In this document: positions 15,750 through 17,081 of the stretch, one piece after another
How positions within the stretch are numbered: position 1 is the first letter of the stretch
Layout: each line of letters begins with the position of its first letter
Origin: Tuwongella immobilis
GTDB taxonomy: Bacteria > Planctomycetota > Planctomycetia > Gemmatales > Gemmataceae
DNA: 64,000 bases
NCBI RefSeq assembly: GCF_901538355.1
Contig: NZ_LR593887.1
Span: 806,001 to 870,000 of the forward strand
Direction: 5' to 3'
Position numbers and translations under genes: made by a program
Notes under the pieces: generated by a model
The model's database searches: none
Seen by the model: the letters and a program-made list of their open reading frames with translations, nothing else
Told to the model about the DNA's origin: nothing

Positions 15750-17081
15750 TCAGGCGGTGGGGGCCGGGGATGGTGCGCTGCCGGTCGCGGGTGGGGTCGG
15801 CAAGCTGGCACGCCAGCGGTTTGGTTGGGTGAACCAAAGGTACGTTTCCAGGCCGATTCCGCCGAGCAGAATGAGAATGCTGATGTTTTGCGACAGCGTC
15901 AGCCCGAATGCCACGGGTGCGGTATCGTTGCGGAGCTGTTCGTTGATGAAGCGGTGGACGGCGTAAACCATCATCAGCAGTGTGAAGATTTGCCCATCGT
16001 GCCGCCGCAGTGGAAAATAGGCCAGCAGCAGCAAAAATAACAGCGTCATGCTGATGGTTTCATACACCTGCGTGGGATGCACGCCGAGGGTGCGCGGCGT
16101 GAATTTCGGCAGCGGCATCTCGGCGGCGGCACGTTCCACGGTGAAGGTGACCGATTTCTCGCCACGCGGCCAGTTGGCGAGCATCTGCGTGAATCGGTCG
16201 CTGGCTTGGGCGATGATGCCTTGCGCGCGGAGTTCTTCCAGGGTTTTCTGGTAAATCGACAACTCCGGGAAGGTGACTTGCAGTGCTTGACGCCCGGAAA
16301 TCTGCGGGCCGACCAGTTGCGCCGGGATGTTCGCTTGTTGAAAGCGTGCAAGCCGCGATTGATTCGCCGAGACATCGTCGGTAATCAGCAAAATCGGATT
16401 GTTGGGCTTGCCATTGATGGTCAAGATGCGGTCGCCGGGCTGCAATCCCGCCTCTTGGGCTTGTGAGCCAGGCTCCACCAGGGCGACGACGGTTCGCGGG
16501 TCGCTCATTCGGTCGTTGTTTTTGGGGATAAATCCGGTGCGGGTCTGCAATCCTTCGCGGTAGACCACTTCATCGGTCACGGGGCTGGTCAACAACGGGA
16601 AATGCACGGCGACGCAATCCTCGCATGCCAGATGGCCGTAGCAGCAGCCGTTGAGAAAGCAGCCGACTCGCCCCAATGCCAATCCCAATGCCAGGGATGG
16701 TGCCACGGCATCGCTCAATTTCCAGGTGGAAATGTGGAATTTCTTGAGCACCAGCGAGTAGAAGATTCGGTAGGCAATCGCCCCGCCAATCGCGGAACCA
16801 TAAAAGACAATGCCACCTTCCCAGAAGCGGAAAAAGTCCCCAATCGGGACTTTGTACTGAATCATGTAGACAATTCGGGCGCCCATGAGTCCGCCGATGA
16901 ACAGCACCAGTGCCAAATCGTGGACTTTATCTCCCGGAATGCCCTGTTTCTCGGCTCGTTTGGCGGCCAGTTGCGTGCAGATCATGAAGCAGAGAAACAG
17001 CATGACCCCGAAGCCGTAGATGGGAATCCCATCGGGGAACCAATCGGTTCGGATCGGAATGGTGAACAGTACCTGTTCCAT
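15750..17081 (-). CDS. lgt: Prolipoprotein diacylglyceryl transferase with an inserted PDZ-like domain
   Basis: A 443-residue integral membrane enzyme that attaches diacylglycerol to the lipobox Cys of prolipoproteins; usual length is 260-300. The Lgt fold is split. Residues 1-165 hold the first helices and the signature GRVGCFLNGCCYG (138-150), and 331-420 hold HPTQVYE (335-341) and the last helices. Between them (about 166-330) is a soluble insertion containing a PDZ core, VEPGSQAQEAGLQPGDRILT (202-221) followed by INGKP. The insertion sits where the protein should face the periplasm. A peptide-docking role for PDZ is inference. The Pro/Ala/Ser tail (424-443) is disordered. Confidence 0.9.
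   Translation of the reverse strand: MEQVLFTIPIRTDWFPDGIPIYGFGVMLFLCFMICTQLAAKRAEKQGIPGDKVHDLALVLFIGGLMGARIVYMIQYKVPIGDFFRFWEGGIVFYGSAIGGAIAYRIFYSLVLKKFHISTWKLSDAVAPSLALGLALGRVGCFLNGCCYGHLACEDCVAVHFPLLTSPVTDEVVYREGLQTRTGFIPKNNDRMSDPRTVVALVEPGSQAQEAGLQPGDRILTINGKPNNPILLITDDVSANQSRLARFQQANIPAQLVGPQISGRQALQVTFPELSIYQKTLEELRAQGIIAQASDRFTQMLANWPRGEKSVTFTVERAAAEMPLPKFTPRTLGVHPTQVYETISMTLLFLLLLAYFPLRRHDGQIFTLLMMVYAVHRFINEQLRNDTAPVAFGLTLSQNISILILLGGIGLETYLWFTQPNRWRASLPTPPATGSAPSPAPTA

Follow-up and report, generated by a model that had tools for sequence, protein, structure and literature searches.

The prolipoprotein diacylglyceryl transferase (Lgt) of the planctomycete Tuwongella immobilis, a member of the Gemmataceae, accommodates a PDZ domain within its head, an architecture that is near certain. 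Lgt is nearly universal in bacteria, is essential in most Gram-negative species and starts the lipid-tagging of exported proteins; a PDZ domain placed in an outward-facing loop may affect the way in which Lgt locates substrates. The reading favoured here, to which we attach a probability of about 0.5, is that the domain is a docking site on Lgt for substrates or for an extracytoplasmic partner. The gene lies in a stretch of DNA of 64,000 nucleotides, hereafter the window, and all features described below are on its reverse strand.

The lgt coding sequence (15750..17081) specifies a protein of 443 amino acids, identified as a PDZ-bearing Lgt from its open reading frame, Pfam, AlphaFold and Foldseek. 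The frame starts with ATG, contains no internal stops and is directly preceded by the Shine-Dalgarno-like sequence GAGGGGCG. The LGT family (PF01790) is matched in two stretches (E 1.4e-50; 172.3 bits against a curated cut-off of 24.9), and between these lie matches to PDZ_6 (2e-8; 34.3 bits, cut-off 27) and PDZ (2.3e-7; 31.6 bits, cut-off 23.2), so the original prediction of an Lgt interrupted by a PDZ domain holds. A phmmer search of PDB sequences similarly assigned the protein ends to Escherichia coli Lgt (5azb) and residues 196-246 to the second PDZ of Aquifex RseP. The full-length AlphaFold2 model, built with 44 sequences (pLDDT 88.8, pTM 0.84), displays the Lgt fold plus a PDZ. Its top Foldseek match is again 5azb (E 4.7e-12, TM-score 0.70 by target length), and the PDZ matches include NHERF1 (probability 0.99) and DegS (probability 1.00), peptide-bound DegS among them. 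Fold prediction, which had been proposed as a check, therefore agrees with Pfam and Foldseek on the identity of the domain.

The N-terminal half of Lgt (residues 19-154, TM1-TM4; 16620..17027; Pfam LGT positions 9-143) includes the signature GRVGCFLNGCCYG (residues 137-149; 16635..16673), in which R138, C141 and C146 align with E. coli R143, N146 and E151. The C-terminal half (15837..16079; Pfam LGT positions 150-237) runs from HPTQVYE (335-341) to TM7 and contains Y373, R377, E381 and R384, the counterparts of E. coli Y235, R239, E243 and R246. Between them, loop-length comparison delimits an enlarged TM4-TM5 loop, the head (residues 150-334; 16080..16634): 185 residues separate the signature from HPTQ at 335, as against 37 in most Isosphaeraceae. 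The net insertion thus amounts to about 148 residues rather than the approximately 165 first proposed. The edges of the loop, FP..SPP...Q... and PRSLPVHPTQ, are common to this protein and the Isosphaeraceae enzymes, and since they remain recognisable the PDZ must have been inserted at one point of a pre-existing loop.

The insertion does contain a PDZ, as predicted, but not a PDZ alone: a further domain of about 68 residues is nested in it, interrupting it immediately before alpha-B. The first part of the PDZ (residues about 177-227; 16401..16553; Pfam PDZ_6 198-226, PDZ 179-226; Foldseek probability 0.99-1.00) includes LQTRTGF (178-184; 16530..16550), a candidate carboxylate-binding loop on the basis of alignment and entropies. 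The second part (residues about 296-325; 16107..16196) comprises, according to the model and the alignment, a short alpha-B, a conserved WPRG and the last strands. Overall, the modelled PDZ has strands at 184-186, 198-202, 218-222, 313-317 and 320-323 and helices at 207-210 and 296-302. The nested domain (residues 228-295; 16197..16400) is predicted in the full model to adopt a beta-alpha-beta-beta-alpha-beta, ferredoxin/ACT-like arrangement, the elements being modelled over 229-295, and comparison with 19 relatives makes this pattern plausible. It has no Pfam match, and a profile search of PDB sequences returned scattered unrelated matches and nothing coherent. Foldseek matches of the full model to aspartate-kinase regulatory domains, which we assign to the nested domain as modelled, are weak (E 0.03-0.07, probability at most 0.6). 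When residues 172-330 were folded alone, the PDZ was matched with probability 1.00, but the nested part was of low confidence and the fold seen in the full model was not reproduced; the nested fold is therefore tentative.

In E. coli Lgt, TM4 ends with the signature motif, and the head domain that follows is periplasmic (PMC4728403). In the T. immobilis protein, the positive residues of loops 44-53, 109-121 and 358-364 fit the same orientation under the positive-inside rule. Homology and charge distribution both point to an extracytoplasmic PDZ, in agreement with the original prediction.

Using the window protein as query, a survey of 44 Gemmatales genomes yielded matches extending into the PDZ in 40; one further genome gave a contig fragment and three no match. 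A PDZ profile built from Gemmatales only was then applied to 215 distinct Lgts, and 99 were found to harbour this domain at the corresponding position, so that neither chance nor an assembly artefact can account for the insertion. Its presence beyond this genome had been named as a check, confinement to it, together with an inactive enzyme, as grounds for rejection. In the window's own family (f1), 40 proteins besides that of the window carry the PDZ, and the single short one is a divergent paralogue, L165. The domain is present in 6/6 proteins of family f2 but in 0/20 of f3, 0/16 of f4 and 0/5 of Brocadiales, f3 and f4 being equated with Isosphaeraceae and Planctomycetaceae from the placement of named loci on the tree. 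Most sampled members of the groups that fall with Pirellulales have it, named carriers including Lacipirellula limnantheis and Thermoguttaceae. Degenerate copies occur in Rhodopirellula europaea (PDZ_6 E 0.053) and R. rubra, and in two Botrimarina a similarly sized loop gives no significant PDZ match (none at all in one): in several Pirellulales, the domain has decayed while the loop stays at about 105-130 amino acids. Isosphaeraceae and Planctomycetaceae-type Lgts have a short loop without PDZ, Phycisphaerae Lgts have long unrelated heads without PDZ, and unrelated head inserts of 70-170 amino acids characterize other planctomycete classes. The attribution of the insertion to planctomycetes at large was thus too broad: it stands for Gemmatales and most sampled Pirellulales, but two Planctomycetia orders and other classes lack the PDZ. 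Outside Planctomycetota the survey covered 79 Verrucomicrobiota systematically, and among these no split or comparably long Lgt was detected, as judged by match span; one long Verrucomicrobiota Lgt that was inspected has a different head.

The heads display further variety. One Gemmataceae Lgt (G022; L031:1441-3183 = L171:6001-7683, the same record) is 561 amino acids long and contains three tandem PDZs in the head loop. Eight Phycisphaerae-type CC Lgts (L206, L211, L217, L220, L222, L232, L243, L245) have charged, helical-looking heads of 130-170 amino acids. The Lgt of L170, titled as a Singulisphaera sp. GP187 MAG, is Gemmataceae-like, whereas the other GP187 record (L218) is short-looped; the MAG is therefore probably misnamed.

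In a tree of the Lgt core, from which the insert had been removed, nearly all Planctomycetia CC-type Lgts form one group (SH-aLRT 93). Within it, Pirellulales (99) and Gemmatales (96), which have the PDZ, and Isosphaeraceae (98) and the Planctomycetaceae type (99), which are short, are each well supported. Parsimony requires eight changes of PDZ state, at least three of them forced by well-supported branches and some corresponding to Pirellulales whose PDZ scored too low for the profile. The tree is compatible with one early gain followed by losses and also with two separate gains. The PDZ may have entered the TM4-TM5 head loop early in planctomycete evolution, the small alpha/beta domain being nested inside it later, in Gemmataceae. 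The nested domain is seen in Gemmataceae only; it is missing from short-type Lgts and many Gemmatales, and the tree makes repeated loss within Gemmataceae probable.

Conservation within the insert is uneven. Median entropy is 1.6 in the Lgt core and 2.17 in the PDZ, and reaches 2.86 in the nested domain, the most variable part. The least variable positions of the insert in Gemmatales are P162, G183, A208, Q179, F184, F161, D217 and P329, of which G183, A208, Q179 and F184 are well below the PDZ median. Across 47 sequences, Q179, T180, G183 and F184 are nearly invariant, and these residues are located at or adjoining the carboxylate-binding-loop position, which in PDZ domains is occupied by GF. 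The loop at G183/F184 is, by its position, a candidate for carboxylate binding. Low variability here, combined with high variability in the nested domain, favours retention of a ligand site; packing of the GF loop against the Lgt body could yield the same pattern of conservation.

Studies of E. coli Lgt indicate that head and arms affect function and substrate specificity, and the linker of preprolipoproteins has been proposed to contact the head (PMC13251419). For a PDZ positioned at such a head, substrate recruitment or partner docking is the simplest interpretation. The domain would sit beside the substrate entrance and bind a peptide in extended form, which could belong to the exported portion of a preprolipoprotein arriving at the enzyme or to the tail of a partner outside the cytoplasm, for instance a translocon-associated factor. 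Substrate would thereby be concentrated near the active site, or the set of lipoproteins to be modified would be chosen. In favour of recruitment we count the Pfam LGT and PDZ assignments, the Foldseek matches to E. coli Lgt and to PDZs including peptide-bound DegS, the spread through 40 of 44 Gemmatales genomes and most sampled Pirellulales, the largely preserved catalytic residues, the conserved GF loop and the triple-PDZ Lgt of Gemmataceae. Against it, Isosphaeraceae and Planctomycetaceae-type enzymes manage without PDZ, the domain is degenerate or undetectable in some Pirellulales, neither conserved partner neighbours nor a shared LspA tail were found, and E. coli Lgt appears to need no partners (PMC4728403). 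Extended to both orders, recruitment would make Lgt a scaffolded enzyme whose PDZs, in one to three copies, capture exported chains or a translocon partner, amounting to a protein-protein gating of lipoprotein modification not known in other bacteria; this broader proposal is put forward tentatively, as somewhat less than an even bet.

The main rival holds that the PDZ is a structural ornament: it would stabilize either the enzyme or its enlarged loop without binding peptide in trans, and the GF loop would pack on Lgt itself or hold an internal segment. Variability in Lgt is greatest in the head (PMC13251419), the unrelated head inserts of other planctomycete classes and the decay of Pirellulales PDZs inside a loop of undiminished size are in keeping with such a role, and the nested domain, by splitting the PDZ before alpha-B, could disturb the groove. 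A ligand-loop motif more conserved in Gemmatales than the rest of the PDZ speaks for the opposite, as does the existence of an Lgt with three PDZs; on balance we regard the ornament as a serious though lesser possibility. Another scenario makes the head a regulatory sensor: a small molecule or a stress peptide would act on the PDZ and the ACT/ferredoxin-like nested domain, and these would gate Lgt in a manner comparable to the gating of the DegS protease by its PDZ. The Foldseek matches to peptide-bound DegS and, weakly, to an aspartate kinase regulatory subunit would suit it. However, the frailty of the nested-domain matches, the failure of the sub-model to reproduce the fold, the fast divergence of the nested sequence relative to the Lgt core and its absence from many Gemmatales render a sensor unlikely.

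The planctomycete protein shares with E. coli Lgt (5AZB/5AZC) the fold, the position of the signature, the R143/R239/E243/R246 network and an extracytoplasmic TM4-TM5 head, although the E. coli head is small and PDZ-free. The equivalents of E. coli R143, N149, E202, Y235, R239, E243 and R246 are all intact, which makes for a conserved catalytic core. Of the essential residues Y26, H103, R143, N146, G154 and R239, all but Y26 were mapped: R143, R239 and G154 are kept, H103 is replaced by Tyr, as in Firmicutes, and N146 by Cys; E151 is likewise Cys. The CC-type signature is common to most Planctomycetia Lgts sampled, the same state being found in Isosphaeraceae and other relatives, and Cys at N146/E151 has been reported for distant Lgts (PMC13251419), so these replacements are a weak argument against activity. 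A second, normal lgt, whose existence would have spoken against the original prediction, was sought in the single-contig genome (6.69 Mb, 96% complete), and no further LGT-family match was obtained at E <= 0.001. This is probably the sole Lgt of the organism and a working enzyme. That it is instead a non-enzyme descended from Lgt, or an artefact of fusion, with housekeeping left to another Lgt, is very improbable: the N146A mutation does inactivate E. coli Lgt (PMC13251419), but the genome gave no substitute at that threshold, the Cys residues recur in relatives, the other mapped key residues except H103 are kept and the protein is conserved across two orders.

Two other kinds of LGT-family protein were observed elsewhere. 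Some relatives (G001, G008, G016) encode an additional family member (L165, L286, L287), highly divergent and about 245 amino acids long, with the motif GRxGC..NGCC and no head insert; this type is absent from the window's genome. One genus-level group (L040-L050; f4, g49) has, in place of the CC type, a quite different Lgt with the signature IRIGNFFNSEILG and HPVMLYE, which suggests that the gene was replaced through transfer.

The Isosphaeraceae Lgt (for example that of Singulisphaera acidiphila, L184) likewise has the CC-type signature and loop edges FP..SPPW..Q... / SLPVHPTQ, but a 37-residue loop without PDZ. The PDZs of RseP, DegS, DegQ and human NHERF1 share the fold, the second PDZ of Aquifex RseP being closest by sequence; they sit in proteases or scaffolds, whereas here the host is a lipid-transfer enzyme and a nested domain splits the PDZ. 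The PDZ-Lgt is a variant of a known enzyme, not a new kind of system, and the sequences themselves are not unknown: the architecture would appear automatically in domain databases. We know of no discrete peptide-binding module previously recognized in an Lgt head, and no description of an Lgt with a PDZ was found in the open-licence literature searched. Of 7,852 microbial PDZ proteins surveyed in 2019, 93% were sorted into 12 families, with no Lgt family among these (PMC6411480). At the head site, Lgt has acquired a recognisable ligand-binding domain, which was kept in two orders, received a nested domain and was once tripled; removing the domain and screening for ligands would put the role of the head directly to the test.

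Two candidates for the ligand or partner were rejected. The C-terminus of LspA is cytoplasmic by known topology, and no tail is shared among the LspAs examined. Conserved neighbouring genes fare no better, as the neighbours of lgt differ among the genomes examined: the window has transketolase and a MASE1/PAS protein next to the gene, and a Lacipirellula and a Singulisphaera have panC there. In one Gemmataceae subgroup (L170:3992-5967, L174:24-923), lgt directly follows Band_7/SPFH genes (HflK/C- or stomatin-like). Finally, the extracytoplasmic loop of Gemmataceae LspA before N-x-G-A (L269, G000:C1:1229480-1229794; other f1 loci among L255-L275) is seemingly enlarged, being by eye some 25-30 residues longer in f1 than in f4, and Pfam often matches positions 38-142 only. 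Two successive lipoprotein enzymes would then have expanded outward-facing parts.
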